57,846 nucleotides of DNA. It comes from a virus. The notes beneath the pieces are model-generated. The model was not told where the DNA came from and did not search any database. It was given only the letters and a program-made list of their open reading frames with translations. Of this stretch, positions 959 through 52,648 are shown in pieces. Where the stretch lies: the IMG/VR virus record IMGVR_UViG_3300028837_000819, positions 1-57,846 of that record, one strand, 5' to 3'. How positions within the stretch are numbered: position 1 is the first letter of the stretch; each line of letters starts with the position of its first letter. The translations under genes were made by a program, and so were the position numbers.

Positions 959-1430
959 CGATGACGATGACGACGACGATGATGACGAAGAGGACGATGA
1001 CGAGGACGAGCCCAAGGCAAAGCCGAAGCCCAAGACCACCGTCGCCGTCGCCTCCGGGAAGAAGGGCAAGAGCGCGGTCAACTACCAGCCGCAGTCCGGG
1101 ACGAAGAAGTGCAAGACGTGTTCGTTCTGGCTCGGCGGCCAGTGCTCTCAGGTGAAGGGTAAGATCAGTCCGGACGGCACGTGCGACCTCCACCAGAAGA
1201 AGGTGAAGACAGAATCCAACAATTTGTTGGTCCGCTTCAGCATCACCGAGAGCGATCACAAGCTCGTCAAGAAGTTCATGGACCTCGCGAAGGGCGTTGG
1301 GCTGGACTACGAGACTCCTGTCCATCTGCGCGGCGGGAAGCTCGAATTCGATGTTCCGGAGGCGCTTGGCCGGAAGATCAAGCCCTTCATGGAGGGCGTT
1401 GGGGTCTCTGCGGAGGTCCTGCAGGAATAA
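825..1430 (+). CDS. C-terminal continuation of the disrupted Cys-rich protein (polyacidic linker plus Cys cluster)
   Basis: Can be read as a 201-residue ORF from the ATG at 825, but that ATG has no ribosome site and lies in the second copy of a 7-bp duplication, so this is more likely the tail of the upstream gene. It begins LRLKEDVDLKAWLAGLSNADW and then has a long Asp/Glu run (about residues 45-65). A Cys cluster follows (CKTC, then QCSQ, then TCDLH), plausibly metal-binding. The last 65 residues form a compact domain (RFSITESDHKLVKKF... to VSAEVLQE). The codons joining the Cys cluster to the last domain contain the 15-bp palindrome at 1216-1230. No family recognised. Confidence 0.6.
   Translation: MLRLKEDVDLKAWLAGLSNADWRGIIEQEPPTNGEPPANGEEPDDDDDDDDDDDEEDDDEDEPKAKPKPKTTVAVASGKKGKSAVNYQPQSGTKKCKTCSFWLGGQCSQVKGKISPDGTCDLHQKKVKTESNNLLVRFSITESDHKLVKKFMDLAKGVGLDYETPVHLRGGKLEFDVPEALGRKIKPFMEGVGVSAEVLQE
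1216..1230. repeat. Palindrome copy 1 (CCAACAATTTGTTGG), inside a coding region
   Basis: Core CAACAATTTGTTG at 1217-1229, flanked by C and G to make a 15-bp odd palindrome. It is the only one of five copies inside a gene, where it encodes Ser-Asn-Asn-Leu-Leu with two TTG leucines, while the gene mostly uses CTC. Other copies: 21424, 27913, 44322, 52634. Confidence 0.75.
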
Positions 1431-1434
1431 GGGG

Positions 1435-1470
1435 TTTTTCGGAAAAAAGGGTGGACACTACTACACCCTT
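1435..1470 (+). terminator. Hairpin pair in the gap after the disrupted gene
   Basis: TTTTTCGGAAAAA (1435-1447) is a palindrome around a central G. It overlaps a second hairpin, AAGGGTG (1447-1453) pairing with CACCCTT (1464-1470) around a 10-nt loop. A modest T-rich stretch follows (TTAAACTTTT). Position after a stop codon suggests a weak terminator; a leader structure for the next gene is the alternative. Confidence 0.4.
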
Positions 1471-1523
1471 GCGTTAAACTTTTGGTCGTTGCCGCTCTGG
1501 CAGAACGGATAAGGAGGATCGTC

Positions 1524-2543
1524 ATGAGTCCAGTCGTGATCGGCGGGTCCAAGGAGAAGGTCGATGAGGTCGACGTCGAACAGCTTCTCGTGAACGAGGA
1601 GGGCGAGCCCTCCATCGAGGCGCAGGTCATCGAGGCTTTCCTCGACGACGTCGAGTATTCCCCCCTCATAGACGAGATGCTGGCGGACGAGGACACGCGC
1701 GAACTCGTCAAGGTCAGCGAGGTGCACGCCAAGCCGCTCAAGGGCGTCGAGGGTGCGCTGATCGTCTGCGAGGAGGGCGAGGAGGACGATGAGGACGCGA
1801 GCCTCTACCTCCTCTTCGAGGTCAAGGGCTCGGACATGGCCGAGATCATCGACGTCGATGACCTGTACGCCATGTTCGACTACCACCTCCGGGAAGAGCT
1901 TCCCGAGGAGACCCTCGAAGACAAGATCAAGAAGGCCGTCTTCGGTGTCATCGACATCGACGAGGACGAGCTTGACGAGCGGTTCAAGAAGGGCGACTTC
2001 CGGAAGATTCACAAGGCTGGCGGGAAGGATCAGGTCGCGCGGATGCTGATCGCCATGATGAAGAAGGAAGTCATCCAGCGGGCCGACTCGCCGGGCACCG
2101 GTTACAAGGGCGGGGACTACAAGAAGCAGCCCGCCGGGTACTCGACCGGCACCCCGAAGGGGAAGAAGAAGTACCGCCTGTACAAGAAGAAGTTCGCCGC
2201 CAAGATCAAGAAGGCCGCCGTCAAGGCGAAGAAGGCCATCAAGATCGCGGGCAAGAAGGCGGGCGCGAAGGGCAAGAAGAAGAAGGCCGGTGGCAAGAAG
2301 AAGGTCGCCGCTTCCGTCGAAGCCCCGGCCGCCGGGACCGTTCTCAGCGAGGGCGCGAGCCTCGCGGGCAAGGTCCTCGGTGTCATGGGCGGGAAGCCTA
2401 CGAAGCCCGGCTTCATCATCGAGGGCGATGAGGAGAAGAAGCCCGAGCCCGAGAAGAAGCCCGAAGGCGGGGACACCAAGCCCGCCGACGAGCCGGAGAA
2501 GAAGGACGGGGACACCGATCCCGAGAAGAGCGACGACGAGTAG
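1524..2543 (+). CDS. Lys-rich, histone-like-tailed phage protein of unknown function
   Basis: Start chosen at ATG 1524 because AAGGAGG (1511-1517) sits 6 nt upstream; an earlier TTG at 1482 in the same frame lacks a site. The 339-residue product has an acidic N-terminal half (to about residue 190), a strongly basic middle (about 205-270) dominated by KK, AKK and GKK like histone H1 tails, then an acidic Pro/Glu/Lys tail ending EKSDDE. The basic middle would bind nucleic acid, so a DNA-condensing or packaged internal protein is possible. That is inference from composition; no family is recognised. Confidence 0.75.
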   Translation: MSPVVIGGSKEKVDEVDVEQLLVNEEGEPSIEAQVIEAFLDDVEYSPLIDEMLADEDTRELVKVSEVHAKPLKGVEGALIVCEEGEEDDEDASLYLLFEVKGSDMAEIIDVDDLYAMFDYHLREELPEETLEDKIKKAVFGVIDIDEDELDERFKKGDFRKIHKAGGKDQVARMLIAMMKKEVIQRADSPGTGYKGGDYKKQPAGYSTGTPKGKKKYRLYKKKFAAKIKKAAVKAKKAIKIAGKKAGAKGKKKKAGGKKKVAASVEAPAAGTVLSEGASLAGKVLGVMGGKPTKPGFIIEGDEEKKPEPEKKPEGGDTKPADEPEKKDGDTDPEKSDDE

Positions 2544-3548: not shown

Positions 3549-5828
3549 ATGGCGCTCTCCGCGCTGCTCGCCGATCCCACGGTCGAGGAACCTACGTACC
3601 TCGATGACTTCTTCCTCTCGGAGGCGGTCTGCCGCAGGATCGCCTCCTTGACGGAAGGCCGGGAGGACAAGCACGTCCTCAAGGCTGTCTTCCTCGCCGG
3701 AGCCGGAGGCGCTGGCAAGTCTGCCGTCGCCGACGCGATGTTCGCGGGCACCGGGATGAAGGTCATCAACGCTGACAAGCATCTCGAACGGTTCCTGAAG
3801 GAACTCAAGATACCGCCCGCCGAGGTGGGGCTGGAGTACGGGCTCTTCCGCAAGGCCCGCGATCTCATGAAGAAGGAGATGAGGCACTACGCACTCGCCC
3901 GCCTCGGGGTCATCGTTGACTCGACGGCGTGGGAGTACACGCGGATCGCGGAGCCCGTCAAGAAGTTCCGGCAACTCGGGTACGACGTCTTCATGGTCTT
4001 CGTGGACACGAGCCTTGAGACGGCGCTTGCCCGGAACAAGGCGCGGGCAGAGAAGGGCGGCCGGAAGGTCCCGGACAGTTTCGTCGAGGACGCGTGGCGC
4101 GGATCGCAGAAGAACAAGAAGAAGTTCGCCAAGCTCTTCGGCAAGAAGCGGTTCCTCATCGTCGATAATGACAAGGACGTGGAGAAGAAGACGTGGGCCA
4201 ACGTGATCGCCCCGAAGCTACGTTCCATCTCCAACAGGATTCTCAAGGCGGCCGTCAAGAACAAGAAGGGGATCGCGTGGCTGAAGAGCGGCAAGCGGGC
4301 GACGAAGGCGTCGCGTGCAGCCGAGTGGCCGAAGCCCAAGAAACCCAAGCCGTTCGTCTTCAAGGCCGATGCGCCCAAGGCCCCGCAGGGGAAGGTGAGC
4401 AAGAAGGGCGTCCCGATGGGGCGCAAGGGGCCGTCGAAGCTGAAGGCCGAGTTCAAGGGTAAGGGCAAGATGGACCTCGGCGTGATGTTTCCCGAGCTAT
4501 TCGGGAAGAGCTACATCCGCCCCAACGAGTCGATGGCCGAGTCCTTCATCAACGAGAAGGACCTCTCGAAGCTCAAGCCCAAGCTCGACGACCTGAAGCA
4601 CAACATCGAGGCGATGTACGAGCTTGAGTGGAAGTATTACCAGATCAAGAACAACGCGTGGACCGGCCGCCCGGAACGGTACGAGAACACGCTGAAGCTC
4701 TACGCCAAGGCGCTGAAGCAGATCATCCCCGCCACAGCGAAGCTCCTGCTTCCGACGTTCGATAAGTGGCTCTCGCAGCACGCGCTCACGAGCAAGAAGT
4801 CGTGGGGCAAGGCGCGCGTCGGTGAGGACCGCGAGATGTACGACGACGTGAAGGAGGCGTGGGGCGCGCTCCAAGGCGAGCTTGAGAGGTACGGCGGCCG
4901 GGATGCTACGTGGGCTCTCATTGACGTGGACCTCGATCAGACGCCGCGCTTCAAGGAACTGGTCGAGCTTCTCCGCAGTGAGGACGAACAATTCTGGAAG
5001 GACGAGCAGTACAGCGAGCACGGCGATGACGATGACGAGTGGGAGCCGTACCCGTACGAGGACGAGCAGTCGTACCTCGAATCGCTCGCGGGCATGGGGG
5101 ACTTCGGTGACGCGCTCGCGTCCTTCTCCATCGACGACGGCTGGAAGTGGGACATCATCGAGGAACTCTACGGCGAGCTTGTCTTCGATGCGTGGTTCGA
5201 TCACTGGAAGGCGCAGGGGATCGTGCAGACGCGGGCAATGGTCCAGAAGCGTCGCAACGATCTCAGCAAGCTCTCGCGTGGTGTGAAGAACGTCCCCAAG
5301 GGCGTGGTCCGGCTCAACCTCGCGCTCAACTGTGCGCACCAGACGGGCTCGATGCTCGACTACGTGGAGCAGGAGCACGAGGATGTCAACACCGCGTTCC
5401 TCAACAAGCTCTCCAACCGGGCGATCCCGCCGAAGTGGAAGAAGGAGATGCGGACCATCGGCGTGGACCTCAACCCGGCGAACGAGAAGAAGACGAGCAA
5501 CTGGCAGAAGTTCATGAAGGCGTGGAAGTCATACTCCGAGTCGCTGGACGAGGGCGTGTCCGCGATCTACGAAGGCAAGAAGGGTCCGATGTGGAAGACC
5601 CTTGAGAAGAACAAGGTGAAGCTCTCTGACGAGGAGCGCGCTGAGGTCATGAAGCGGAAGGCTGTCTGGCACCACGGCCCGAACGGAGAAGCGACGCCCG
5701 CCGTCTGGAAGGCTGTGGTCGACGGCGTGAAGTGGTACGTGACGAACACGCACCGGGCCTTCAACGTCCGGCCTACGCTCGCGGGCGCGATCAGCCGGTA
5801 CCACAAGTTCATCAAGAGCACGGCTTAG
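3549..5828 (+). CDS. P-loop kinase (zeta-toxin/polynucleotide-kinase-like) fused to a long unknown domain
   Basis: ATG 3549 follows GGAGGAGGG. The 759-residue product has a Walker A motif GAGGAGKS at about residues 51-58, then VINADKHLERFL, a helical lid and VIVDSTAWEY. FMVFVDTSLETALARNKAR follows, as in zeta-toxin/AAA_33 kinases that phosphorylate nucleotides, sugars or nucleic-acid ends. The kinase-like domain ends near residue 225. Behind it is a basic linker and about 450 residues of helical, Trp/Tyr-rich sequence with an Asp/Glu patch (about 495-515). Kinase-family membership is well supported by motif order; substrate and the C-terminal role are unknown. The fusion is much longer than stand-alone zeta toxins (usually under 300 residues), and no antitoxin gene is adjacent, so it may be a virion-carried enzyme. 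Confidence 0.7.
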   Translation: MALSALLADPTVEEPTYLDDFFLSEAVCRRIASLTEGREDKHVLKAVFLAGAGGAGKSAVADAMFAGTGMKVINADKHLERFLKELKIPPAEVGLEYGLFRKARDLMKKEMRHYALARLGVIVDSTAWEYTRIAEPVKKFRQLGYDVFMVFVDTSLETALARNKARAEKGGRKVPDSFVEDAWRGSQKNKKKFAKLFGKKRFLIVDNDKDVEKKTWANVIAPKLRSISNRILKAAVKNKKGIAWLKSGKRATKASRAAEWPKPKKPKPFVFKADAPKAPQGKVSKKGVPMGRKGPSKLKAEFKGKGKMDLGVMFPELFGKSYIRPNESMAESFINEKDLSKLKPKLDDLKHNIEAMYELEWKYYQIKNNAWTGRPERYENTLKLYAKALKQIIPATAKLLLPTFDKWLSQHALTSKKSWGKARVGEDREMYDDVKEAWGALQGELERYGGRDATWALIDVDLDQTPRFKELVELLRSEDEQFWKDEQYSEHGDDDDEWEPYPYEDEQSYLESLAGMGDFGDALASFSIDDGWKWDIIEELYGELVFDAWFDHWKAQGIVQTRAMVQKRRNDLSKLSRGVKNVPKGVVRLNLALNCAHQTGSMLDYVEQEHEDVNTAFLNKLSNRAIPPKWKKEMRTIGVDLNPANEKKTSNWQKFMKAWKSYSESLDEGVSAIYEGKKGPMWKTLEKNKVKLSDEERAEVMKRKAVWHHGPNGEATPAVWKAVVDGVKWYVTNTHRAFNVRPTLAGAISRYHKFIKSTA

Positions 5829-5837: not shown

Positions 5838-8780
5838 ATGGCAACGGGGAAGTACAAGTTCGCTGACCTGAAGGATGTCGAAGAGGCGATGAACGGCCTC
5901 GACTCCATCGTCTCAGGCGCGGGTGTGATACAGGGTGCGGTCAACACGTTCGCGGACCTGCCGAATCCCATTGGCCTCAAGGACGGAACTATCTACATCG
6001 TTCGGCTGGACACGCCGGGCCACGACAACGGCTTCTATGTGGTGCAGTCGGACACGTGGCAGTTCTTCGATGCGCTCAACTTCCAAGACTCCGACGAGGT
6101 CCCCAACAAGTCGATCATACCGGGTGCGAGCGTGACCGCTGCGCTCGATCACCTCGGCGGGTACTTCATGTCGGACTTCTCTACGCCACAGGCGGCCATT
6201 GACGCGGCCATCGTGTCGGGACAGAAGTTCCTCTTCGTCGATCAGCTATTCTCGCTCTCCGTCGCGCTGGACCTCAAGAGTGAGGCGGACCTCAGCCTCA
6301 TGGGGCTCGGGTCGGGGACGGGCTTCCTCGTTGCGAACGTGGCAGCCACAGGAGCCATCGAGAACGTCGGGGATCGTGCGAAGCTCAGTGACATCTACAT
6401 CGAGGTCCAGAACTGCACCACCACGGCCAAGATCATCGACGCGGACGCGGCTGCAGGCGTGACGCTGGACAACGTGCTCATCAGGATGAAGACCGGCACG
6501 CAGGCGGCCCGCGCCTTCTCGCTCTTCGACTGCGACGACTCCACCGTCAACCTCTGCCGGGTCATTGTCGAGGATGCTGGCACTGGCAAGCTCGATTACG
6601 GCATCTATGCTGAAGGCTGCGAGAACATCATCGTCCAGAGCAACCGCACGCTCAAGGGGACGGTCGGGATCAGGGTCGATGACAGCGAGCGGGCCTCGGT
6701 CGAGAACAACTACGTCCTGTATCCGTGGGGCAACGCGTACGAGATCGTTGACTTCAACCACGGGCAGGCCCTCAGCAACCACGCGTACTCGGGCAACACG
6801 GCGGGCACGTACGGCTTCTTCCTTCAGAACCTCGAAAGCCTCCAGTTTGGCAAGAATGACGTGCAGGATTGGGACGCCGGGGCCAACATGACCGGCGCGT
6901 ACTTTGACAACGTGGACAAGGGCGTCTTCGAGGGGAACCTCTTCCGGGACCTCTCGCTTGACGGGATGTACTTCACGGACAGCGCCAGTCTCACGTGCCG
7001 GAACAACTTCGTGCACGTGTGCGGGCGCGACGGCATTTACTTCAACACTAACCAGTACGCGAACATCTCGGGGAACTACATCTATTTCCCCGTGCGCGAC
7101 GGGTACGGCTTCACGTCCTGCGCTCAGACGATCCTCAATGACAACCACATCTTCGGACCGGGCGGCCGAAACGGCGTCCTGTGCTCGGCCGGGGCCATGT
7201 TCCAGATTGCCAACAACCACCTGTACAACGCCTTCGGGACCGGACCGGATATCGAGTGTGTCGATTGCACGACCGTCGTCATCGAGGGCAACATCTGTGG
7301 CGGGTCCAGTGTGCAGAAGGTCTACCTACATGGGGCCACCACGCGGGACATCCTCGTCGACGACAACCAGTGCACGTTCGTTCGATACGATGGGATCGTC
7401 GTTGAGGACTGCGAGAAGGTACAGGTCAAAGACAACACCATGCGCGTCGGGAGCGATGTTGACTTCGACGCCATCAAGGTGACCGAGGGCAATGACATCC
7501 ACGTCGAGGGCAACCAGATAACTCAGTGGGACGCTTCGACGGGCATCCGTGGCATCTCGTGGACCACCTCCGTGGCGGACAGCAGCAAGGGCACCATCTC
7601 TCGGAACAGGATCACGGGCCTCACGGGCGTTGGCATCTACCTCCACGGTGCACCCCCGGCCGGACCGAAGTATCACGAGCACGTCGACGTGGAGAACAAC
7701 AGGATCGTCAGTCCGGGGAGCCACGGCATCCACGCCGCGCACATCCGGTACTGCAACATCAACGGGAATAAGATCAGCAAGGGTCAGGGGCAGGATACCT
7801 ACGGCATCCTGATCGAGTCTGACGTGGGTCAGTCGAACAACCTGTGCTCCGTCTCTCGCAACAAGATCACGGAATGGAATGCGCAGACGGGGATGGGCTG
7901 CATCAAGATCGCCGGAAACAATAATACCGAGTTCGAGATCGACGAGAACAAGGCGTACCAGTGCACCGGCCACGCGATGGAGATCAAGTGCAGCGGGTTC
8001 AGCCTCATTGGCAACCGGGCCGAGGCAGCCTTCGGCGCGGCTCTACTTGCCAACGGGCTTGTCAACGGCAGCATCACTGGCGGGTCGTACGAGGGCGGTG
8101 ACGCCACGACCGGGGGTGCTATCGTCTTCGACGGTGGCGGATCAGTCACGCTCACTGGAGCCTTTATCAGTGGCGGTTCCTATCGCGCGGTGTGGGTGAA
8201 GGACTACTGTGAGAACATCAGCGTCACGGACAACCACATCAAGACCGGTGGGAACCTCGCGGCTGACCGCGCTGTCATCGACGTGGAGGGCGAGGTCGAG
8301 CGTATCCTCATTGGCGACAACGTCTTCGAGCACTCGAACCATCACCCGATCCGCGTCAAGACCGGAACCACTGGCGATCCCGACGCGGTGACGGTCAAGG
8401 GGAACATCTGCGTCGGCTGCTCTGTCGGCGGCATCAAGTGCCAGAACGTGGGCCATCTCAAGGTCGAGGGGAACACGCTCGGTGACAAGGCGTACAACGC
8501 CGGATACCCGGCCATCGACGTGGACAACTGCGATCAGGCGTCGCTCCAGCACAACACGATCTATGACTGGAACGCCGGGGCCGGAGATCACGGCATCTAC
8601 GTCCAGAACTCGACCAAGGTCCTGCAGGCGGACAACACGATCCAGAATGTGGGAGGTGACGCGGCGAAGTGGGAAGATACGGTCACGTACTCGATGAGTC
8701 GTGACAACATGATGATCGGCGAAACCGTCGATCTCGGTTCTGGCACCGGTAACGATGCGAACGGTGACCGGATCGTATAG
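5838..8780 (+). CDS. Right-handed beta-helix tail spike/fibre-like protein
   Basis: ATG 5838 with AGGGG upstream. The 980-residue product has an N-terminal region (1-110) with a typical phage-fibre look (NTFADLPNPIGLKDGTIYIV). A very long run of about 22-residue rungs follows, rich in N-x-I/N-x-V turns (SGNYIYF, GNICGG, DDNQCTF, NNRIV, GNKISKG), the hallmark of parallel beta-helix (PbH1, pectate-lyase-like) folds. Such proteins bind or cleave surface polysaccharide. No lytic catalytic site can be assigned by eye. Its place next to the ParB-methyltransferase genes, far from the tail genes, is unusual for a receptor-binding protein. Confidence 0.75.
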   Translation: MATGKYKFADLKDVEEAMNGLDSIVSGAGVIQGAVNTFADLPNPIGLKDGTIYIVRLDTPGHDNGFYVVQSDTWQFFDALNFQDSDEVPNKSIIPGASVTAALDHLGGYFMSDFSTPQAAIDAAIVSGQKFLFVDQLFSLSVALDLKSEADLSLMGLGSGTGFLVANVAATGAIENVGDRAKLSDIYIEVQNCTTTAKIIDADAAAGVTLDNVLIRMKTGTQAARAFSLFDCDDSTVNLCRVIVEDAGTGKLDYGIYAEGCENIIVQSNRTLKGTVGIRVDDSERASVENNYVLYPWGNAYEIVDFNHGQALSNHAYSGNTAGTYGFFLQNLESLQFGKNDVQDWDAGANMTGAYFDNVDKGVFEGNLFRDLSLDGMYFTDSASLTCRNNFVHVCGRDGIYFNTNQYANISGNYIYFPVRDGYGFTSCAQTILNDNHIFGPGGRNGVLCSAGAMFQIANNHLYNAFGTGPDIECVDCTTVVIEGNICGGSSVQKVYLHGATTRDILVDDNQCTFVRYDGIVVEDCEKVQVKDNTMRVGSDVDFDAIKVTEGNDIHVEGNQITQWDASTGIRGISWTTSVADSSKGTISRNRITGLTGVGIYLHGAPPAGPKYHEHVDVENNRIVSPGSHGIHAAHIRYCNINGNKISKGQGQDTYGILIESDVGQSNNLCSVSRNKITEWNAQTGMGCIKIAGNNNTEFEIDENKAYQCTGHAMEIKCSGFSLIGNRAEAAFGAALLANGLVNGSITGGSYEGGDATTGGAIVFDGGGSVTLTGAFISGGSYRAVWVKDYCENISVTDNHIKTGGNLAADRAVIDVEGEVERILIGDNVFEHSNHHPIRVKTGTTGDPDAVTVKGNICVGCSVGGIKCQNVGHLKVEGNTLGDKAYNAGYPAIDVDNCDQASLQHNTIYDWNAGAGDHGIYVQNSTKVLQADNTIQNVGGDAAKWEDTVTYSMSRDNMMIGETVDLGSGTGNDANGDRIV

Positions 8781-8781
8781 C

Positions 8782-8799
8782 CCCTTGCGAGCCCAAGGG
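8782..8799 (+). promoter_or_regulatory. Hairpin overlapping the ribosome site of the first ParB-methyltransferase gene
   Basis: CCCTTG (8782-8787) pairs with CAAGGG (8794-8799) around a 6-nt loop. The 3' arm is part of the AAGGGAGG site for GTG 8809, so the stem could hide it. Confidence 0.4.
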
Positions 8800-8808
8800 A
8801 GGTCAGGC

Positions 8809-10086
8809 GTGGCGACGAAGGCGAAGACGAAGAAGAAGCCCACGAAGAAGAAGCGGGCCAAGGGGTCCAACGGCCATTACGCGCGCGCGAATGTCGTGAG
8901 GCTCAAGGTCGCGGACCTCGAAGACGCTCCCTACAACGCGAGGACGATCACGCAGAAAGCTCTCAAGGGACTCTTCAAGAGCCTCGAAGAGTTCGGCCTC
9001 GTGCATCTCCCCGTGGTCAACAAGCGCAAGAAGAAGTACCGGATCATCGGCGGCCACCAGCGGGTCCTTCTTCTCAGGCGAGAGGGGGTCGAGCATGTAT
9101 GGTGCATCGTGGTGGAGGTCCCCGACGACGTTGAGCGAAAGGCCAACTTCACGCTCAATAACCGAGCTATCCAAGGGGAATTCGTTCCCGAACTCACCCG
9201 AGACCTACTGGACCGGATTCGGGGTCTCGTCGATAACGCAGACGCGAAAGACTCGCCCTTCAAGCTCCTCAACTTCGACGAGCTAGTGAAGCGGGTCTCC
9301 CGGAACATGAACGTGCTCTCCGGCGAGAACGGACAGCCGATCATCCTGAACGAGGGCCGCGTCGACGAGGACGCCGAGCCGCAGATGACGAAGACCAAGG
9401 CCGACTCTCAGGTCGGGACGATCTACGAACTCGGGGATCACCGCATTCACTGTGGGGGTCTCAAGGGTGTCGGGAGTCTCAAGGCGTTCGGTGTCGCAGA
9501 CGACGTGGTGGACATGGCCTTCACCCGGATCGCTGATCCCAAGACGCTGAGCGAGGGGTACCTCGACTCGTATCTCGGGACGATACTGGAGGGCACGAGG
9601 GGGGCCGTTTACATCGTCACGACGACGCGGAACCTCGCGCAGATTCAGCAGCGCTTCGAGGCTCTCCACGGGCACTGGTCAACTACGCTCATGTGGGTCT
9701 ATCCCGAGGCGAGCCCGTCGGTCGACGAGCGGTACCGGGACGTGCTCATCCCCGTCATCTATGGCTGGCCGGAGGGGGCGGATCGCCAGTTCTATGGGGA
9801 GAAGCGGATCAGCAACGTCTTCACCCTGAAGCGGGCACCGAAGAACAAGCTGCCGGTGGAGATCGCCATCAAGGCGTACGCGCTGTCCTCGTGCGACGGG
9901 GACAACGTGCTCGATGTGGACGTGGGGGACGGCTCAAGTGTCATCGCCGCGAGCATGACCCCGCGTCATCTGATTGGCTACGTACGAACGGCCCACGCCT
10001 GTGACAAGGTGCGGAGGAGATGGGCCGAATTCATTCATGGGCCGAAGTGCAACTGGAAAGCGCTTACACCGAAGCGTTCCGGATGA
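8809..10086 (+). CDS. ParB-like/DNA methyltransferase fusion with degenerate catalytic motifs
   Basis: GTG 8809 is chosen because AAGGGAGG (8795-8802) lies 6 nt upstream; an ATG at 8755 would overlap the spike gene without a site. The 425-residue product has a basic N-terminus, a ParB/Srx-like domain (about 25-130; IIGGHQR corresponds to the ParB box) and a C-terminal region that aligns by eye with the intact fusion at 10323. The expected DPPY (motif IV) reads TRIA at about residues 239-242, and the expected DPFVGSGTT reads DVDVGDGSS at about 369-377. The tail RRRWAEFIHG matches RRRWAESVHG of the paralogue. Methylation is therefore unlikely; a DNA-binding, decoy or regulatory role is inference. 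Confidence 0.75.
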   Translation: MATKAKTKKKPTKKKRAKGSNGHYARANVVRLKVADLEDAPYNARTITQKALKGLFKSLEEFGLVHLPVVNKRKKKYRIIGGHQRVLLLRREGVEHVWCIVVEVPDDVERKANFTLNNRAIQGEFVPELTRDLLDRIRGLVDNADAKDSPFKLLNFDELVKRVSRNMNVLSGENGQPIILNEGRVDEDAEPQMTKTKADSQVGTIYELGDHRIHCGGLKGVGSLKAFGVADDVVDMAFTRIADPKTLSEGYLDSYLGTILEGTRGAVYIVTTTRNLAQIQQRFEALHGHWSTTLMWVYPEASPSVDERYRDVLIPVIYGWPEGADRQFYGEKRISNVFTLKRAPKNKLPVEIAIKAYALSSCDGDNVLDVDVGDGSSVIAASMTPRHLIGYVRTAHACDKVRRRWAEFIHGPKCNWKALTPKRSG

Positions 10087-10106
10087 CCGGAGGTGGAGGG
10101 CGCTGT

Positions 10107-10319: not shown

Positions 10320-10322
10320 TCT

Positions 10323-11555
10323 ATGCCGATTGAGATGACGAAGCCGACGATCATGCGGCTCAAGCTGAGCACGCTTGAGTTCTCGAACTACAACCCGAGG
10401 CAGATCAGCGAGACCGCGATGCAGGGTCTCCGCGAGGCGCTGGCCGAGTTGGGTCTCATGGACATGCCTCTCGTCAACGTCGCCGACGGGAAGAAGAGGA
10501 TCATCAGCGGCCACATGCGCGCGCGAGCGCTTATGGAGGAGGGGTACACGGAGGCGGACTGCCTCGTCGTGGAGTTCGACGACCTGAAGGAGCAGATGGC
10601 GAACATCACGATGAACAACCCGGCCGTTCAGGGGAAGTGGGACCTGAAGGACATCGTGCCGACGCTCGATCAGATCACGGCGGACCTACCGAAGCCGGAC
10701 CACATGCTGCTGGAGACCTTGCTCCGGGACATCAGGAAGCAGGTCTCGCGCAACCCGGACCTGAGACCGTCGGGCAAGAAGTTCGCGGGCGGCACGCCCA
10801 AGTCGAGCGCCGGAGTGATCTACGGCCTCGGCCCGCACCGGCTGTACTGCGGAGCCATGCAGGACAAGGACGCGTTCCCCTTCATCTTCGGGAAGAAGCG
10901 AGCGACGGCGTGCGTCACCGATCCTCCGTACAACGTCCAGTACGAGCAGGCGGGCAAGGACGGCGAGATCGAGAATGACAACATGAGCCCGGCTGAGTTC
11001 CGGTCCTTCATGGAGGACGTGGTGTCCGTGATCCGGGCGTACGTCTCCGGCGTCACCTACATGTTCATGTCGAGCAAGTACCTGCCCGTCGTGCAGGACG
11101 TGTGGGAGTATCACGACGGGATCGTGGATCGCTGGATGGCGTGGGTGAAGACGAACCCGAGCGTCAGCAGCTTCCGGACGGTGGACTTCCACAGCCAGTT
11201 CGAGTGGATCATGTTCGGGTACAAGGCCGGGGCGAGTGTGCCGGAGGTCGAGACGGCGAGGACGAACCTCCTCATGTTCCCGAAGCCAGCAGTCAACAAG
11301 CTCCACCCGACGCAGAAGCCGCTCGAAGTGGTCGCGCCTCTGGTCGAGGACGCCACCGACGAGGGCGAGATCGTCTTCGATCCCTTTGTCGGGAGTGGGA
11401 CTACGATCATCGTCTGCGAGGTCCTGAAGCGCGTGTGCTTCGCCTGTGAGCTTGATCCCCGGCACGTGGACACCGCTCGACGGCGTTGGGCCGAGAGCGT
11501 GCACGGCGAGAATTGTGATTGGGAAGACTTGACTAAGGCGGTTTCGGCTATATGA
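10323..11555 (+). CDS. ParB-like domain fused to N4/N6 DNA methyltransferase (apparently intact)
   Basis: ATG 10323 after AGAGGTG. The 410-residue product has a ParB/Srx-like N-terminal domain (about 1-120; LEFSNYNPRQIS, IISGHMRARALMEEG) and a beta-class methyltransferase domain. DPPY is at about residues 200-203 and DPFVGSGTT at about 355-363, in the order IV then I expected for N6_N4_Mtase (PF01555). Between them is a target-recognition-like region. Such fusions are common in phages and prophages and probably methylate adenine-N6 or cytosine-N4 to evade restriction; no restriction nuclease is adjacent. It is a paralogue of the degenerate gene at 8809. The last codons carry a promoter-like sequence. 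Confidence 0.85.
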   Translation: MPIEMTKPTIMRLKLSTLEFSNYNPRQISETAMQGLREALAELGLMDMPLVNVADGKKRIISGHMRARALMEEGYTEADCLVVEFDDLKEQMANITMNNPAVQGKWDLKDIVPTLDQITADLPKPDHMLLETLLRDIRKQVSRNPDLRPSGKKFAGGTPKSSAGVIYGLGPHRLYCGAMQDKDAFPFIFGKKRATACVTDPPYNVQYEQAGKDGEIENDNMSPAEFRSFMEDVVSVIRAYVSGVTYMFMSSKYLPVVQDVWEYHDGIVDRWMAWVKTNPSVSSFRTVDFHSQFEWIMFGYKAGASVPEVETARTNLLMFPKPAVNKLHPTQKPLEVVAPLVEDATDEGEIVFDPFVGSGTTIIVCEVLKRVCFACELDPRHVDTARRRWAESVHGENCDWEDLTKAVSAI

Positions 11556-21423: not shown

Positions 21424-21436
21424 CAACAATTTGTTG
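21424..21436. repeat. Palindrome copy 2 (CAACAATTTGTTG)
   Basis: 13-bp odd palindrome 5 nt after the stop at 21419 and 62 nt before ATG 21499. Same orientation as copies 1 and 4. As RNA it can fold CAACA-AUU-UGUUG. Confidence 0.75.
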
Positions 21437-25164: not shown

Positions 25165-26655
25165 GTGCCGGGACACATACTCAGCGAACAGGGCCTCTAC
25201 GAGGGCCTGATCGAGGCAGGTCTCCGCCTCGCAGCCATCCCCGAGTCCGAGGGCGGCTGGAAGGAGTATTTCGAGGAGTCCGACGGAGCGGACCTTCGGA
25301 TACAGGACGACATTCTCCGCGCGCAGACTGCCCTGATGCTGGAGAACGCCAAGCGCTGGCTCGCACAGAAGTGCAAGGCGCGTCGCAACAGCGAGGGCAG
25401 GCTGGTGATCGACGAGGTGACCCGCTCCGCGCTGGTCGGCGGCTGGTCGGACTACCTCTTCCCGATCATCAGGGCGTCGTTCCCCACCAACCCGATCAAC
25501 GATCTGGTGTCGGTCCAGCCCACCAACCGCCGCACCGCGACGGTGGTGTACTGGAACTGGATCGTTGCCACGCAGAAGGGCTCGTACTATCCGGGCCAGA
25601 GGCTTCAGGACGCGAACAAGGGTCGCGTCGACGCCGGATACCACTTCTCCGACGAGTGGGTCATGGGCGAGGTCGTCGGGGTCGGCACAGGCGCATCGCC
25701 CACCATCGCCGGGACGCTTGCGTTCCACGATGGCGGCGGCGTCCGTCCGGGCACCGTTGCGGTAACCGCCGTGGTCGCGGCCACGCCGGAGACGGTGTAC
25801 GACGACGGGAACGGCGGCTTCACGGGTGGTGTCGTTGGCACCATCAACTACGTGAGCGGCGCGTTCAGCATCACGTTCAGCGGCAACGTTGACGCAGCGG
25901 CCAACGTGGTCGGCAACTACAAGTGGGACTCCGAGGGCGGCGCACTGCCCGAGGTCGACGTCCAGATCATCTCCAGCACCGTCGAGACGCAGCGGCGCGG
26001 GCTGAAGGTCAACTACTCGATGGAGGCCATGCAGGACATCATGGCCGAGTTCGGCGTCTCGCTTGAGGGCAACCTCGTCAGCGGCGCGGCCGAGCAGATC
26101 AACTTCGAGATAGCCCGTCAGCTTATCGCCGAGATGTGGGCCGTGGCTCCGGTCAACAGCACGTTCCCCACGACTCTCGCCGGTACGCCGGGTTACAACC
26201 AGCAGGACCACTTCAAGGACCTGTCCTACAACCTCAACGCGGCAAGCAACTCGATATGGGCGGCCACGCAGAAGGGGTACGGCAACTGGCTCGTCATCGA
26301 CGAGTTGGCCTCCAACGTCGTCGAGTCACTCCCGGCGGGCATGTTCGTCGGCGCACCGCGTCCGGCCAACGTGCAGGGGCTCCACTTCGTCGGCACGCTG
26401 CTCAACAAGTACCGGGTCTACAAGGACATCCACCTCACGGGGCTTCCGGGCTCCAGCGCCAACGGCAACATGCTGATGGGGTACAAGGGGCGGCAGTTCT
26501 ACGAGGCCGGGCTGGTGTGGGCTCCGTACCAGTTGCTTTACACCACGGAGTCGCTGCAGACGGCGGACTTCCTGACGCAGAAGGGAATGGCGTCAAGGTA
26601 CGCGACCAAGATGGTCAACAACGAGATGTACGTCCGCGTCAACCTCGGCCCGTAA
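25165..26655 (+). CDS. Major capsid protein (T4 gp23-like, HK97 fold)
   Basis: GTG 25165 after AAAGGAAC. 496 residues. Landmarks of the gp23 group: LFPIIRASFPTNPINDLVSVQPTNRRTATVVYW near residues 93-125, RGLKVNYSMEAMQDIMAEFGVSLEGNLV near 279-306, EINFEIARQLIAEMW, and a C-terminal domain with a YKGRQFYEAGLVWAPY motif. It forms the icosahedral shell. The middle (about 170-260) contains a Gly/Thr-rich, beta-strand-like insertion that may protrude as an insertion domain. A strong hairpin terminator follows the stop, as often happens after high-level capsid genes. Confidence 0.9.
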   Translation: MPGHILSEQGLYEGLIEAGLRLAAIPESEGGWKEYFEESDGADLRIQDDILRAQTALMLENAKRWLAQKCKARRNSEGRLVIDEVTRSALVGGWSDYLFPIIRASFPTNPINDLVSVQPTNRRTATVVYWNWIVATQKGSYYPGQRLQDANKGRVDAGYHFSDEWVMGEVVGVGTGASPTIAGTLAFHDGGGVRPGTVAVTAVVAATPETVYDDGNGGFTGGVVGTINYVSGAFSITFSGNVDAAANVVGNYKWDSEGGALPEVDVQIISSTVETQRRGLKVNYSMEAMQDIMAEFGVSLEGNLVSGAAEQINFEIARQLIAEMWAVAPVNSTFPTTLAGTPGYNQQDHFKDLSYNLNAASNSIWAATQKGYGNWLVIDELASNVVESLPAGMFVGAPRPANVQGLHFVGTLLNKYRVYKDIHLTGLPGSSANGNMLMGYKGRQFYEAGLVWAPYQLLYTTESLQTADFLTQKGMASRYATKMVNNEMYVRVNLGP

Positions 26656-27912: not shown

Positions 27913-27925
27913 CAACAAATTGTTG
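27913..27925. repeat. Palindrome copy 3 (CAACAAATTGTTG)
   Basis: Same 13-bp site in opposite orientation (central A), 4 nt after the stop at 27909 and 13 nt before ATG 27939. The downstream gene has only a weak ribosome site, so the element sits where it could influence initiation. Confidence 0.75.
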
Positions 27926-43733: not shown

Positions 43734-43773
43734 CCGAAGAGTTTCAAGCGGACTCTGACAGGAGGATAGGACC

Positions 43774-44307: not shown

Positions 44308-44321
44308 AATCGGCCGGTGAT

Positions 44322-44338
44322 ACCAACAATTTGTTGGT
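44322..44338. repeat. Palindrome copy 4 (ACCAACAATTTGTTGGT)
   Basis: Longest copy: 17 bp, core 44324-44336, between the tube stop (44307) and the chaperone start (44381). Same orientation as copies 1 and 2. Confidence 0.8.
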
Positions 44339-44355
44339 GTCACTGGAAAGTTGAC

Positions 44356-44374
44356 CTCCTTTCAGCGGAAGGAG
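44356..44374 (+). promoter_or_regulatory. Hairpin sequestering the chaperone ribosome site
   Basis: CTCCTT (44356-44361) pairs with AAGGAG (44369-44374) around a 7-nt loop. AAGGAG is the Shine-Dalgarno site of ATG 44381 (6 nt), so folding would hide it. Confidence 0.5.
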
Positions 44375-44380
44375 CATGTT

Positions 44381-45202: not shown

Positions 45203-45401
45203 GCTGGAAGACCTCCGAGCGTACGAATTCTTCCTCCTGTACTACGGCCACGGGTACACGCAGACTGGCATCGGTGGCATGACGTTCGACGAGCTTAACT
45301 GGCACGTCAACAAGCTCGCTGAGCAGTTGAAAGAGGAGAAGCGCGTCCGTGACCAGCAGATGAGGAGGCTGAAGTCACGGGCGGCTGCGAGGAGAAGATA
45401 G
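45180..45401 (+). CDS. Frameshift extension of the tail assembly chaperone
   Basis: Frame +1 relative to the chaperone, open through to the TAG at 45399-45401, directly before the tape measure start at 45402. The extension reads GRPYCKLEDLRAYEFFLLYY, GHGYTQTGIGGMTFDELNWH and a basic helical end KRVRDQQMRRLKSRAAARRR. The Tyr/Phe/Leu-rich helix and basic C-terminus look like real protein, while the zero frame is already closed. There is no good start codon with a ribosome site inside; the ATG at 45279 has none. It completes the usual two-product chaperone arrangement of tailed phages before the tape measure. The fusion would be about 339 residues. Confidence 0.65.
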   Translation, partial: FFGRPYCKLEDLRAYEFFLLYYGHGYTQTGIGGMTFDELNWHVNKLAEQLKEEKRVRDQQMRRLKSRAAARRR

Positions 45402-48350: not shown

Positions 48351-48352
48351 TT

Positions 48353-49021
48353 ATGGCTGGTACGAATGACAGCGTGGTCCGGAATCAGCTAACTAGCGAT
48401 CAGCGCTTCGCTCAGGGACTTGTGCCTCCACTGAGCGACAAGCTCCTCATTCGTATCGACCCTTCGTGGCCGCACTGGCTTCCGTGGCGCAAGGTCGTCA
48501 ATCCGGCGGGTCGCGCAGGCGTTCCCGACACGCACCTCATCTTCACCTTTGTCGATCTCGAAGATGGCCTGACCGAATCCGCCGCCGTCAACTACGCGGA
48601 CACGGATGTCGTCGGCCGGGCCGAGGCGTACAAGACCTTCATCTCGACGGGCAACAAGCAGTTCCAGATCAACTTTCAGTTCCGGGCGCAGGGCTTGGAG
48701 ACGAGTGGCGACGAGATTTCAGAGATTCTTCAGAAGGAGGTTGTCCTCCCGGCTCGGTGGCTCGATGCTCTGAAGTATCCGATAGTCGATCAGGGACTCA
48801 CGCTTGCACCGCCTCCCTGCATCCTCCAGATCGGTTCGCTTTTCATCGCACGGGTGATCGCCGACGACGTGCAGATACAGTGGCAGCACCCGTTCGATCC
48901 TGAGAGCCTCCTACCTCATGGCGCTGAGGTCTCGTGCACCTTCAGCGTCGTGCGCCGCGTGGTCGGCAACTATCCGATGGACGGCCTTTGGGGCGCGCGT
49001 CGGACGACGGGAGTGACGTAA
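48353..49021 (+). CDS. Baseplate/tube initiator-type protein
   Basis: ATG 48353, 3 nt after the tape measure stop. 222 residues, beta-rich: LLIRIDPSWPHWLPWRKVVN, FVDLEDGLTESAAVNYADTD, FQINFQFRAQGLETSG, AEVSCTFSVVRRVV. Position directly after the tape measure and before the gp53-like gene suggests a baseplate tube-initiator or hub component (T4 gp48/gp54 role). No homologue is confirmed. Confidence 0.5.
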   Translation: MAGTNDSVVRNQLTSDQRFAQGLVPPLSDKLLIRIDPSWPHWLPWRKVVNPAGRAGVPDTHLIFTFVDLEDGLTESAAVNYADTDVVGRAEAYKTFISTGNKQFQINFQFRAQGLETSGDEISEILQKEVVLPARWLDALKYPIVDQGLTLAPPPCILQIGSLFIARVIADDVQIQWQHPFDPESLLPHGAEVSCTFSVVRRVVGNYPMDGLWGARRTTGVT

Positions 49022-49362
49022 TGGGTGATGTGATCGGCATCGCGGCAGACAGTCGGTACAAGGACACGCCGCTTTACACGGCTCCCGACGGGCAGCCCGA
49101 GTTCGCGCTCATGGAACCCCCCGTCGAGTTCAGCACCGAGCAGTCGAGTTTTCAGGTGCATCGCGTCGCCCGCAACGAGATCGGATTCCTCGATGTGCTG
49201 GCGGTCGTTTACTACGGACAGGGGCAGGAACGGCTCTGGTGGGCCATCGCGTTGGCAAACGCGCTGGTGGACCCGGAGAGGGACATGTACGTCGGGCAGG
49301 TCCTCGTGATCCCGTCGAGGTCTAGGATCAACAGCTTCATCTCGCGCGCGCGGGAGGTCTGA
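49021..49362 (+). CDS. Baseplate wedge/LysM-like protein (T4 gp53-like)
   Basis: ATG 49021 overlaps the previous stop (TAATG). 113 residues with VHRVARNEIGFLDVLAVVYYG, LWWAIALANALVDPERDMYVG and QVLVIPSR. This is the LysM-like pattern (YG...WWAIA..N...DP....G..L.IP) of gp53-type baseplate proteins that link wedges to the hub. The motif match is good for such a short protein. Confidence 0.7.
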   Translation: MGDVIGIAADSRYKDTPLYTAPDGQPEFALMEPPVEFSTEQSSFQVHRVARNEIGFLDVLAVVYYGQGQERLWWAIALANALVDPERDMYVGQVLVIPSRSRINSFISRAREV

Positions 49363-49363
49363 C

Positions 49364-50890
49364 GTGCCGGATTCATATTCACCACTCCAGATCGAGATCA
49401 TCTTCGTGACGGACACCCTCAAGGTGCAGATTCCGGCAGAGAACTATTTTCAGTCCTTGTCCATTGAGCAGCGTATGGGTGGCGCGTGGGCGGGGGCGCT
49501 AACTCTCTTCGACCCGAACTCGGCGTACCTTGAGGACCTCATCCTTGCAGCGGGGCCGCAGGGGGCGGGTCGTGGTGTTCTTGTCCGTTGGGGTTGGACC
49601 CACGACGCGGAGGGAAACTACATCCCGCTCAGCAAGCAGCGGGTCTTTGAGGGCCGGATCGCAACGTACACGTCTGAGTTCGCCGTTGAAGGCTTGACTC
49701 TCAAACTTGACATGGTACACGCGGGTATCCTCAACACAATGGTCGATGGCGAAGCCGCGCCGACGCATTCGTGGTCAGGCCAGATGACCGCCAGCGGTAT
49801 TGTTCGTGATATTGCGGAACAGCAGGGTTGGCAGACATCGGAGAAGGGGTTCTACACCAACAGAAAGACCTTCACGCGTGAGACGGTGGAGGACACGGAC
49901 GGTCCAATCGGCGAGTCTATCGTGAAGCCCGCTGACATGGATTTCGTGACCTTCATCCGAGAGTTCCTTCTCCCCCGTGCTGTCAACAAGGACAAGACGC
50001 ACTTCACGTTCGGCTTGGTGCATACGGCCCCCTCGAAGGAGACCACGACGGGTCTGCGAGTCCGGAAGGCGGACTATCCGTCGGTCGTTCACTTCCACTC
50101 CCCCGAATTCGACGGCGCGAGTTCTGGCGGTCTCAACAGGGCGAAAGGCGAGACCAAGCGGCAGATCATGGCCGCGAAGAGCTACATCTTTGGTCGGGAC
50201 AACATGGGCGAGGTCATCAGCTTCAGCCCGAGCGACGATACGCTCCTCGTCGCGTTGCAGGGGCACAGCAACAGCATTTACAAGGGTCTTGACTCCCTCA
50301 AGGGCGAGCAGATTATCTTCGAGACGCAGGAGCTTGAGGGCTTCCCCGGTGCGACCAAGGTTGTCACGGTGGACACGGAATACACGACTGAGGTGGGAGG
50401 CGAGAGGGTCAGTGCGATCCCGCTCATCGCGCGCACGGGCGAGGACTTGGAGCGGAAGGCCGCTGCGCAATTCTCAAGGGTGGGACAGTCGGGATACACT
50501 GCAACGCTGGAGGTCAGAGGCACGCACGATATGCGCGTCTTCGATTACATCGAGGTGATCTACTACCGGCGTGGGGAGACGATGGTTGGGGACGACCAAA
50601 CGATCCCGACGAGCGACTGGTTCAACGAGAGCACGCCGAAGAAACGGCAAGAGCGGGCGAGGGCGAAGGCGTTCCAGAAGCACTATCTGTCGGGACTCTA
50701 TCATGTCAGGGACATTTCGCACGAACTGAGTGCTTCGGGGTGGGTTACCACGTGTGAGCTTCAGCGGTCAGGGCACGCGTACGTGGGTCCGGACGCGACG
50801 AAGAGGCCAGTTGACATCAGCGTTGAGGCGCAGTCTGTCGAAGGTCAGCGTCGTGAGGACATGATCCCTGCGGAGGTGCGGCGTGGGTGA
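49364..50890 (+). CDS. Baseplate hub protein (gp27/gpD-like)
   Basis: GTG 49364 with GGAGG upstream. 508 residues with the hub layout: a beta start (KVQIPAENYFQSLSIEQRM, WAGALTLFDPNSAYLED), VEGLTLKLDMVHAGIL, DIAEQQGWQT, a middle with DMDFVTFIREFLLPRA, and a beta-rich C-terminal half (ATLEVRGTHDMRVFDYIEVIY). The next gene is the OB-fold spike, as in T4 gp27-gp5. It would form a trimeric ring at the tube tip. The C-terminal end (about 470-508) is polar and likely contacts the spike. Confidence 0.7.
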   Translation: MPDSYSPLQIEIIFVTDTLKVQIPAENYFQSLSIEQRMGGAWAGALTLFDPNSAYLEDLILAAGPQGAGRGVLVRWGWTHDAEGNYIPLSKQRVFEGRIATYTSEFAVEGLTLKLDMVHAGILNTMVDGEAAPTHSWSGQMTASGIVRDIAEQQGWQTSEKGFYTNRKTFTRETVEDTDGPIGESIVKPADMDFVTFIREFLLPRAVNKDKTHFTFGLVHTAPSKETTTGLRVRKADYPSVVHFHSPEFDGASSGGLNRAKGETKRQIMAAKSYIFGRDNMGEVISFSPSDDTLLVALQGHSNSIYKGLDSLKGEQIIFETQELEGFPGATKVVTVDTEYTTEVGGERVSAIPLIARTGEDLERKAAAQFSRVGQSGYTATLEVRGTHDMRVFDYIEVIYYRRGETMVGDDQTIPTSDWFNESTPKKRQERARAKAFQKHYLSGLYHVRDISHELSASGWVTTCELQRSGHAYVGPDATKRPVDISVEAQSVEGQRREDMIPAEVRRG

Positions 50891-51953
50891 TTACAAGAAC
50901 CTGCCCGGTGTCTACCGTGCCATCATTGCGTGTGTCGAGGACCCCGAGGAGCGGGGCCGCTATCAGGTCCGTATCCCACTCTTCCACGACGAGGATGTCC
51001 CCATCGAACATCTCCCGTGGGCCGAGCAGGTCGTCTTCGCTGGCAAGGGCTTCGGCGACGTACCGAATTACGACGTCGGGGACCTCGTGCTCATCGCCTT
51101 CGAGGGTGGCAATTACGAGTACCCCTTCATCATGGGCGGCTGGCTCAGTCAGTCTCAGGGCATCCCCGATCTTCCGCCCGAGCAGCGGGAAGACTACGAG
51201 GAGACGCGCAAGCGCTGGATGAGGATGGACCGCGCGGGCAACCTCATCGAGATGTCCGAGGTGGACGACGAGCTTCTCATCCGGATCAAATCCGGGGACG
51301 CGGAGGTCGTCGTTTCGCAGATCGACAACAGCATCAACATCGCCGCCACCGGGCCGGTCAGGATCAGTGCGCAGCGTGCGGAGATCGCGGCCGAGGACTT
51401 CTCTGTCCGGAGCGAGAACGCCGAGATCGTTGCCACGCATCGTGACGGCGGGGGCGCTGGCGACGCGATCCTCAACATCTTCTCCTCGCAGGTCGTCAAT
51501 ATCTACGGTGGGGACGCTCCGGGGATCGACGCCGATGCTGTCGTGCGTCTCGGTCAGTACATCGACGGGGCGGCAGCCGCTCGCCAGACCAACCTCGTGG
51601 AGGCGCGCTCCGAGATCATTCAGCTTGGCAAGAAGGACGATGAGATTTCACCGGCATACAAGAAGACGGTTACCATCAACGTCTCGGCGGACGCCCTCGT
51701 CTTCTTGGAGTCTAACACGAAGGTACAGATCGACGCGCCGGACGTGGAGGTCAACGCGAGCAACAGCGCGAAGGTCATCTGCTCGGCCATCGAACTTGGG
51801 GTCGGGACGATGCAGCAGCTTGCGAACTATGCGTTGAAGGCCGCCTACGACGCTCACACGCACGGTGGCGTTCAGAGCGGTGGCAGCCTGACGGGAGCAC
51901 CGACGACGCCGCTGTCGTCGAGCGAGTTCACCACTGATACGAAGGCGAGCTAG
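50883..51953 (+). CDS. Tail spike/baseplate puncturing protein (gp5/gpV-like OB-fold)
   Basis: GTG 50883 with GGAGG (50873 on), overlapping the hub gene by 8 nt. 356 residues: OB-fold N-terminus (YRAIIACVEDPEERGRYQVR, DVGDLVLIAFEGGNYEYPFI) then repeats forming a beta-helical stalk (IKSGDAEVVVSQIDNSINIA, VTINVSADALVFLES) and AYDAHTHGGVQSGGSLTGAP near the end. The HTH-GG and TGAP pattern marks the gpV/gp5 spike group. There is no lysozyme domain, unlike T4 gp5. It pierces the outer envelope during contraction. Confidence 0.8.
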   Translation: MGDYKNLPGVYRAIIACVEDPEERGRYQVRIPLFHDEDVPIEHLPWAEQVVFAGKGFGDVPNYDVGDLVLIAFEGGNYEYPFIMGGWLSQSQGIPDLPPEQREDYEETRKRWMRMDRAGNLIEMSEVDDELLIRIKSGDAEVVVSQIDNSINIAATGPVRISAQRAEIAAEDFSVRSENAEIVATHRDGGGAGDAILNIFSSQVVNIYGGDAPGIDADAVVRLGQYIDGAAAARQTNLVEARSEIIQLGKKDDEISPAYKKTVTINVSADALVFLESNTKVQIDAPDVEVNASNSAKVICSAIELGVGTMQQLANYALKAAYDAHTHGGVQSGGSLTGAPTTPLSSSEFTTDTKAS

Positions 51954-51955
51954 AC

Positions 51956-52630
51956 GTGGCAGACGCATGTGCAGGGTGTCCGCAATTCATGAAGGAGGCC
52001 GTCCGGCGTCCGGTTGGGGATGCTCTGCAGAAGGTTCAGAACCTCAAGAAGATGACGAACATCATCAACGACGCGATCAGTGCCATCGTCGGCGACGCCG
52101 CCACGGACGTGGACGCCATCGTGACGGCCATGCCCGATCCGCCGGTCCTCGATTTGAGCTACATGGTCTCGATCCTGACGTGCCCCTTGCTCCCCTTCGC
52201 TGTCGCGGCGGACCTGACGATCCTCCAGAAGCTCGATCCCCGCGAACTGGCGAAGATGGTGCAGGGCCAGATGAAGGGGTACATCAAGACCCTCAACCGG
52301 AACTATCAGGGGGCGCTCAAGGAACTGGATAGCTGGCCGGTCATCAAGCTCTCACAGAACTTCTATCGGGACTTCAAGCGCCTCGGGTTCGACGCTGTGC
52401 TCATGGTCGAGGTGCAGGCAGTGACGGCGGCAATCGAGATCATCTGCCCCGACGAGTACGCGGAGGGACCCTACGAGACATTCGATGACGAGGTGCAGGG
52501 TTTCAGCCTCACGGGCTTCCTGCCGAGTGGGCTGGATTCGGAGGTGAACGATCTTCTGACTGCGCTGCAAGGCGGCGAAGTCAAGATCGAAGCGTGGAGG
52601 GCAGCGGCGAGCGCTCCCATAATATTCTGA
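51956..52630 (+). CDS. Unknown baseplate-region protein
   Basis: GTG 51956 after a weak site, 2 nt after the spike stop. 224 residues: an N-terminal Cys pair (ACAGCPQF), helical stretches (VGDALQKVQNLKKMTNIIND), a hydrophobic segment (YMVSILTCPLLPFAVAADLT), and an acidic C-terminal half. It lies between the spike and gp25-like genes, so it is probably a baseplate component. No family recognised. A palindrome copy follows its stop. Confidence 0.6.
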   Translation: MADACAGCPQFMKEAVRRPVGDALQKVQNLKKMTNIINDAISAIVGDAATDVDAIVTAMPDPPVLDLSYMVSILTCPLLPFAVAADLTILQKLDPRELAKMVQGQMKGYIKTLNRNYQGALKELDSWPVIKLSQNFYRDFKRLGFDAVLMVEVQAVTAAIEIICPDEYAEGPYETFDDEVQGFSLTGFLPSGLDSEVNDLLTALQGGEVKIEAWRAAASAPIIF

Positions 52631-52633
52631 GGA

Positions 52634-52648
52634 CCAACAAATTGTTGG
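52634..52648. repeat. Palindrome copy 5 (CCAACAAATTGTTGG)
   Basis: Core 52635-52647, inverse orientation like copy 3, 4 nt after the stop at 52630 and about 42 bp upstream of a promoter-like pair. Position suits an operator or a 3' end element. Confidence 0.75.

Follow-up and report, generated by a model that had tools for sequence, protein, structure and literature searches.

Noc sites are dispersed palindromes that function without ParA, parS and Noc sites are even-centred and 14–16 bp long, and the KorB operator OB is an odd 13-bp palindrome with an S centre. KorB of RK2 has been described as a ParB-family clamp that slides from its operators and silences promoters, OB being termed a 16-bp silencer in that account (PMC11790492). 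The stoperators of Cluster A mycobacteriophages are reported as dispersed short sites, a minority of them in promoters, whose consensus varies with the repressor among related phages (PMC6550527), and the 15-bp element SPBRE, repeated in the SPbeta phage genome, is bound by one master repressor, MrpR (PMC10516654). Orphan phage ParB proteins have also recently been surveyed as a group (PMC12704722). The DNA analyzed here, the complete 57,846-bp stretch of IMG/VR virus record IMGVR_UViG_3300028837_000819 (hereafter the window), covers part of the genome of a large myovirus whose structural genes are T4-like, and carries five copies of the palindrome CAACAAWTTGTTG. Comparison with related virus records suggested that these palindromes are probably binding or loading sites of an orphan phage ParB encoded next to recA, outside the window.

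As claimed in the initial annotation, exact copies of CAACAAWTTGTTG stood at 1217, 21424, 27913, 44324, and 52635, and their number was beyond chance, the exact sequence being present in 0 of 100 dinucleotide shuffles. Scanning the window for variants with one or two mismatches gave no additional copy and, with both strands merged, CAACAAWTTGTTG was the sole 13-mer occurring five times. The sites were as follows:

1217..1229, no strand: palindromic site 1, 15 bp with flanks, within open reading frame (ORF) 825-1430
21424..21436, no strand: palindromic site 2, stop codon 4 nt before; equivalent in the close relative G001 is TAACGATTCGTTA
27913..27925, no strand: palindromic site 3, stop codon 3 nt before and start codon 13 nt after; equivalent in G001 is TAACGAATCGTTA
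44324..44336, no strand: palindromic site 4, a perfect 17-bp palindrome, stop codon 16 nt before; present in G032, a record of the same virus
52635..52647, no strand: palindromic site 5, 15 bp, stop codon 4 nt before

Of the two orientations proposed earlier, the letters stood (T centre at 1217, 21424, and 44324; A centre at 27913 and 52635) but not the distinction, because CAACAAWTTGTTG is palindromic and the central base merely names the strand. The + strand base after the palindrome was G in all five copies, and the symmetry extended to 15–17 bp at 1217, 44324, and 52635. Gene calls from a simple caller of our own agreed that four copies lay in same-strand gaps, 3–16 nt past the preceding stop codon, and that the intragenic copy at 1217 supplied two TTG codons, TTG accounting for 87 of 1354 leucine codons (6.4%). 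When 43800-53300, which takes in sites 4 and 5, was scanned for promoters and terminators, no promoter-like match overlapped a site; one such match followed site 5 by 43 nt, and a terminator-like match followed site 4 by 19 nt.

The structural products of the window included a prohead protease, tail sheath, T4 baseplate protein, and baseplate wedge (profile matches), and the named phage records matching by sheath and capsid were all <60% identical. The family was assembled from virus records, using as a probe the following gene:

25165..26655, + strand: major capsid protein, T4 gp23-like

Relatives were obtained via the capsid (24 records), ParB (five), and RecA, PolA, and a window 15-mer (ten), giving 40 records (the window plus G001–G039), of which 38 were examined and G013 and G020 left out. 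The baseplate protein as a probe recovered no relative, and a single scan of GTDB genomes for hosts by capsid yielded 42 pattern matches and no relatives.

Conservation in close relatives, on whose absence the initial annotation was prepared to abandon the sites, gave a divided picture. The exact 13-mer was absent from all ten relatives first found via the capsid protein, but the closest of these ten (G001; L124), 95.3% identical to the window across 13.3 kb, carried the replacement palindrome TTAACGAWTCGTTAA at both shared positions. A joint switch of this kind at two sites is the pattern that a site co-evolving with its reader would produce. In G001, 34 additional bases containing a GC-rich inverted repeat also stood just before one swapped site (L124 about 1880-1913; window 21424). 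Exact CAACAAWTTGTTG was kept in G030 (three copies), G031 (two copies), and G032. The last matched window 39496-52481 at 99.99% identity, and its source sample was numbered next to that of G031; since G032 is the window virus from a sample with a number adjoining that of G031, G030 and G031 may represent further genome regions of the species to which the window belongs. These two records, which agree at 99.9% of positions along most of the stretch they share, were recovered via the polymerase, G031 having been matched earlier by the window 15-mer alone (as L018). Apart from a single contig with 96% identity to the window, the matches listed in a scan with the 15-mer of G001, aimed at a ParB of that specificity, included no ParB-bearing family contig.

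A dispersed odd-centred palindrome based on AC-N5-GT, mostly lineage-specific, was present in 27 of the 38 records, comprising 19 records with 245 sites, seven more, and G032 with one site. Site patterns were picked record by record after data inspection, and order-2 Markov sequences contained a mean of 0–0.2 matches to those of the 19-record set, in all of which the palindromes were odd-centred. Half-sites included CCAACAA (window, G030), TTAACGA (G001), TRACAC (G003), TTGACAY (G006, 51 copies), AGTGACA (G009), TTTACGC (G018), CTGGAC (G024, G033), and, with the AC displaced one base, ATTAAACG (G037). In the short records G001, G012, G014, G019, and G032, assignment to the family meant 1–3 sites matched to relatives, while a lone TTTCGCSGCGAAA inside a gene common to G004 and G005 was not scored as family and the weak case of G025 was scored as none. 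Eleven records, nine of them <32 kb, had no palindrome or a weak one (G004, G005, G008, G011, G016, G022, G023, G025, G029, G034, and G038). The pairs window/G032, G030/G031, and G027/G028 represent the same or nearly the same virus, so that the records are not independent, and two of the 51 sites of G006 lie in its terminal repeat and are possibly a single site. Two phages served as controls: the initial 100 kb of Listeria phage LIS04 (182 kb in all) gave nothing clearly over the null, and the initial 50 kb of Bacillus phage SP-15 (222 kb in all) just one local tandem array, made up of 15 ATAAGTACTTAT palindromes at 3778-3991 (L318). Canonical parS, allowing ≤3 mismatches in 23 records, gave isolated matches only, two in G006 and one in G022.

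Site placement followed gene boundaries, as called by our own simple caller, across the 19 records: centres were intergenic in 159 of 245 cases (30.4 expected), and 42 of the 245 lay ≤8 nt from a stop codon (4.0 expected). At 12 of the 28 sites of G003, the preceding gene ended on the outer TRA of the palindrome as its stop codon. Spacing was even in G006, G003, and G026, with a coefficient of variation of 0.50–0.56 and equally even random sets in 0 of 5000, and also in G009 (P 0.0004) and G007 (P 0.0006). Evenness exceeded both random points and random gene junctions in these five, and random points only in G037 (P 0.001) and, weakly, G035. This regularity suggests a genome-wide role beyond promoter control. 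About 13 G006 sites (by eye) covered the -35 box of a conserved promoter module, and a TANNNT -10 box followed a TTGACA-like half (≤1 mismatch) by 15–18 nt in 26 of 187 cases along genes and 4 of 189 against them. Since few sites satisfied promoter rules, most are not promoters. The promoter of parB itself had a full site over its -35 in G003, G006, G026, G027/G028, and G035. In G006, a promoter module that contains a palindrome is followed within a few bases by the start of an ADP-ribosylglycohydrolase gene (L158:6985-7995).

The best candidate for the reader of the sites is ParB, judging from protein comparisons. A Pfam scan of nineteen G006 proteins and one G003 protein, chosen as conserved or regulator-like and not the whole family proteome, identified ParB as the conserved scanned protein with a sequence-specific helix-turn-helix (HTH) type. 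The order recA-ParB-exonuclease (a 5'-3' exonuclease) held in all 10 records that span this region, G025–G029 having been located via ParB and G003, G006, G009, G018, and G022 independently; records lacking ParB in this check lacked recA and the exonuclease too. In a separate locus set, 12 of 33 were without ParB, coverage of the recA region not being checked for each. ParB_N scored over the Pfam cut-off in 11 of 11 ParB proteins scanned and HTH_ParB in nine of them, the second ParB of G030 (ParB2) falling below (E 0.0083) and that of G009 giving no match. The nucleotide boxes G[EH]RR and EN..R were likewise retained, with a strict GxRR in 14 of 17 ParBs and the EN box in 17 of 17. The alignments matched ParB, Noc, and KorB structures by sequence, and a predicted ParB model (mean predicted local distance difference test, pLDDT, 87; predicted template modelling score, pTM, 0.62) matched the same three by fold. 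Chain 8qa9_B of a KorB-KorA complex had the top TM-scores of the listed fold matches (0.50 query, 0.73 target) and ranked 12 by E-value. By these sequence features the proposed reader is a member of the ParB-CTPase protein family, in which binding of cytidine triphosphate (CTP) is predicted.

Second ParB copies were sought in G030, G031, G032, G034, and the window; G030 and G031 carried two tandem ParB genes, 57% identical, between recA and the exonuclease, and the ParB of the window virus is probably duplicated in tandem. The recognition helices of the tandem pair differ (G030 6805-9087; L391), possibly reflecting a ParB-to-Noc-like split. About 4 kb from parB in G003, a Family-A-like DNA polymerase (L145:11887-15018, with orthologues) has an N-terminal part resembling uracil-DNA glycosylase (UDG), as judged by eye from motifs. 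ParA (AAA_31) was found in none of eight records and a ParA-binding motif in none of 17 ParBs, while tyrosine integrase (Phage_integrase) was found in none of eight records, seven of which are possibly fragments, serine integrases not being searched. Without ParA and tyrosine integrase, neither partition nor classical lysogeny is indicated.

The palindrome family was found in 13 of 18 ParB-bearing records, and site and protein appeared to diverge together. Over 11 lineages, site distance correlated with the distance of the ParB DNA-binding domain (r 0.59, p 0.008, with G030 ParB2; r 0.52, p 0.025, with G030 ParB1). With another gap rule this domain again correlated (r 0.53, p 0.008), and distances of ParB_N, the exonuclease, RecA, and PolA were not significant. 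Site divergence followed the ParB DNA-binding domain better than neighboring proteins; the correlation is modest and owes much to the divergent lineages, supporting the proposed pairing without proving it.

In the mechanism proposed, ParB dimers, each monomer joining a ParB_N nucleotide-switch domain to an HTH, would bind the palindrome. On -35 sites of early-type promoters, including parB's own in five lineages, ParB would block RNA polymerase and so act as a self-limiting repressor. Free-standing sites at gene ends would load sliding clamps, leaving the genome coated or silenced, or alternatively would act as transcript roadblocks. Site sequence and DNA-binding domain would change jointly between viruses. 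A broader version can be offered only tentatively: in a lytic family, evenly spaced loading sites might let CTP-driven ParB clamps coat the DNA end to end without ParA. The coat might serve as a viral nucleoid or a self-mark and at the same time silence early genes, and related phages might be kept separate by rapid evolution of the site-protein code, the tandem ParB duplication being part of it.

Several observations weigh against ParB as the reader or against a uniform function. Five of the 18 ParB-bearing records (G022, G025, G029, G034, and G038) had no clear site family; four are 14–32 kb fragments and G022 is 155 kb long. G022 bore a repeated promoter-like element in place of the sites, and its recognition helix lacked the RR pair common in the others. 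Further candidates existed in the HU-like protein and in conserved proteins without Pfam matches (e.g., G006 126143-127048 and 131069-132334). Spacing was not significantly even in G015, G018, G002, G010, the window, G033, G036, and G039, and under a stricter promoter rule G035 retained one of 25 sites, and G036 and G039 retained none. The full site on the parB promoter was limited to six of 18 ParB-bearing records (five lineages; the gene start in G029, and with it the promoter, is uncertain) and was lacking in G030/G031, the bearers of the window palindrome. In the covariation analysis, PolA (r 0.37, p 0.15, n=10) was not far under ParB, the ParB C-terminal part correlated as well (0.44, p 0.04), and the recognition helix by itself was borderline (p 0.04–0.06). 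The signal of the DNA-binding domain fell to r 0.35 (p 0.06) without G037, and that of ParB was gone in subsets of seven and eight lineages (r 0.07, 0.22). The G022 element, GGTAATTCGTTAC, occurred in seven dispersed copies (L212-L219) at 4441, 13683, 26647, 62695, 119583, 138359, and 149232, most of them nested in a larger inverted repeat whose TTGAC boxes point outward, and is perhaps that phage's own operator or promoter.

The strongest competing explanation, although unlikely, is that an ordinary HTH repressor of a temperate phage uses the sites as operators and stoperators, as in Cluster A, blocking early promoters and stopping elongation at dispersed sites to hold lysogeny. The layout is alike, some sites lying on -35 boxes and many being free-standing, and the site of a close relative differs. 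Small proteins of the GerE, MerR, and XRE types occur in G006, and an XRE protein occurs in G003. The eight-record searches covered GerE and HTH_3 domains as well as tyrosine integrase, whose absence, with other integrase types not searched, argues against a temperate lifestyle; integrase-negative G006 moreover carries a terminal direct repeat of 127 bp, a feature of complete genomes, and the single GTDB scan gave no capsid relative. The four HTH proteins of G006 (GerE, MerR, and two XRE) were rejected as readers, having no convincing homologues in ten other records; the G003 XRE protein was not compared. The repressor or stoperator role suggested at first nevertheless survives merged with the ParB proposal, as a minority of sites cover -35 boxes.

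Binding by a conserved HU/IHF-like or other conserved DNA-binding protein that organizes or packages the genome appears improbable. An HU-like protein was encoded in eight records (G003, G006, G009, G018, G025, G026, G033, and G035) and was not found in G022, where no such palindrome was detected either. However, HU/IHF proteins are not known to read 13–21 bp palindromes, and HU distance did not follow site distance (r 0.24, p 0.24, n=7), a subset in which ParB equally fails.

Slightly less probable still is a role as RNA hairpins in mRNA processing or termination at gene ends, one of the initially suggested functions. Many copies do sit at gene ends, at 44324 the stem reaches 15 bp and precedes the terminator-like match, and G001 has the extra GC-rich hairpin beside site 2. 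The fold z was -6.2 at one site, -2.6 at one, and -1.5 at one, with no folding at the other two, so that three of five window sites lay between 0 and -1.6 and a general hairpin role was unsupported. Sites also occur inside genes and on -35 boxes, and symmetry kept while the letters change between relatives counts against such a role.

The initial annotation had also pointed to ParB-like proteins encoded in the window itself, which are:

8755..10086, + strand: protein with a ParB_N-like segment scoring 26.1 bits against a cut-off of 26.3; matches phage DNA methyltransferase family phrog_498
10323..11555, + strand: N6/N4 DNA methyltransferase (phrog_498, Pfam N6_N4_Mtase), ParB_N at 20.6 bits, under the cut-off

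Both were rejected as readers, as they look like ParB_N/methyltransferase fusions and gave no HTH_ParB match at E 0.001; the ParB idea was partly supported in that family members encode a ParB with ParB_N and HTH_ParB in a genome region outside the window, and the locally encoded proteins are probably not the reader. That the palindromes are recognition sites of these fusions, encoded at 8755-11555, is highly improbable, since methylases of the N6/N4-type class usually read 4–8 bp and several relatives carry a sparse, even site series. Elsewhere in the window, 3549-5828 encodes a large protein with a Zeta-toxin/AAA kinase domain.

By analogy, the best reading is that the sites would act like KorB operators or repressor stoperators. 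No published description of a dispersed ParB-site series in a phage was found, judged by titles and abstract openings and with subscription literature mostly outside the search. If the proposal is true, orphan phage ParB proteins would gain a concrete job, the 11 lineages compared would form a natural series of ParB-site pairs for studying the evolution of ParB recognition, and stoperator-like whole-genome control would extend to T4-like phages without detected signs of lysogeny. The SPBRE-MrpR system differs in its recombinase-derived prophage repressor and its roughly ten sites in promoter regions (PMC10516654). Cluster A stoperators share the dispersal of short sites, some promoter-borne and most not, with a consensus that differs among related phages, but are described as asymmetric, mostly oriented with transcription, and from temperate phages (PMC6550527), whereas the present sites are palindromic, tyrosine integrase was absent from the eight records searched, and the reader is probably ParB. 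The Noc/ParB-parS systems are alike in their ParB_N and HTH protein, ParB and Noc being the best sequence and fold matches, and are unlike in that the sites here are odd-centred and neither ParA nor its binding motif was found in the eight records and 17 ParBs, respectively. KorB is the closest precedent for the proposed function, as a ParB-fold CTP clamp serving as a repressor from operators near or far from promoters (PMC11790492); compared with KorB-OB, the phage genomes carry up to dozens of sites each, often evenly spaced and with a sequence that varies by lineage.

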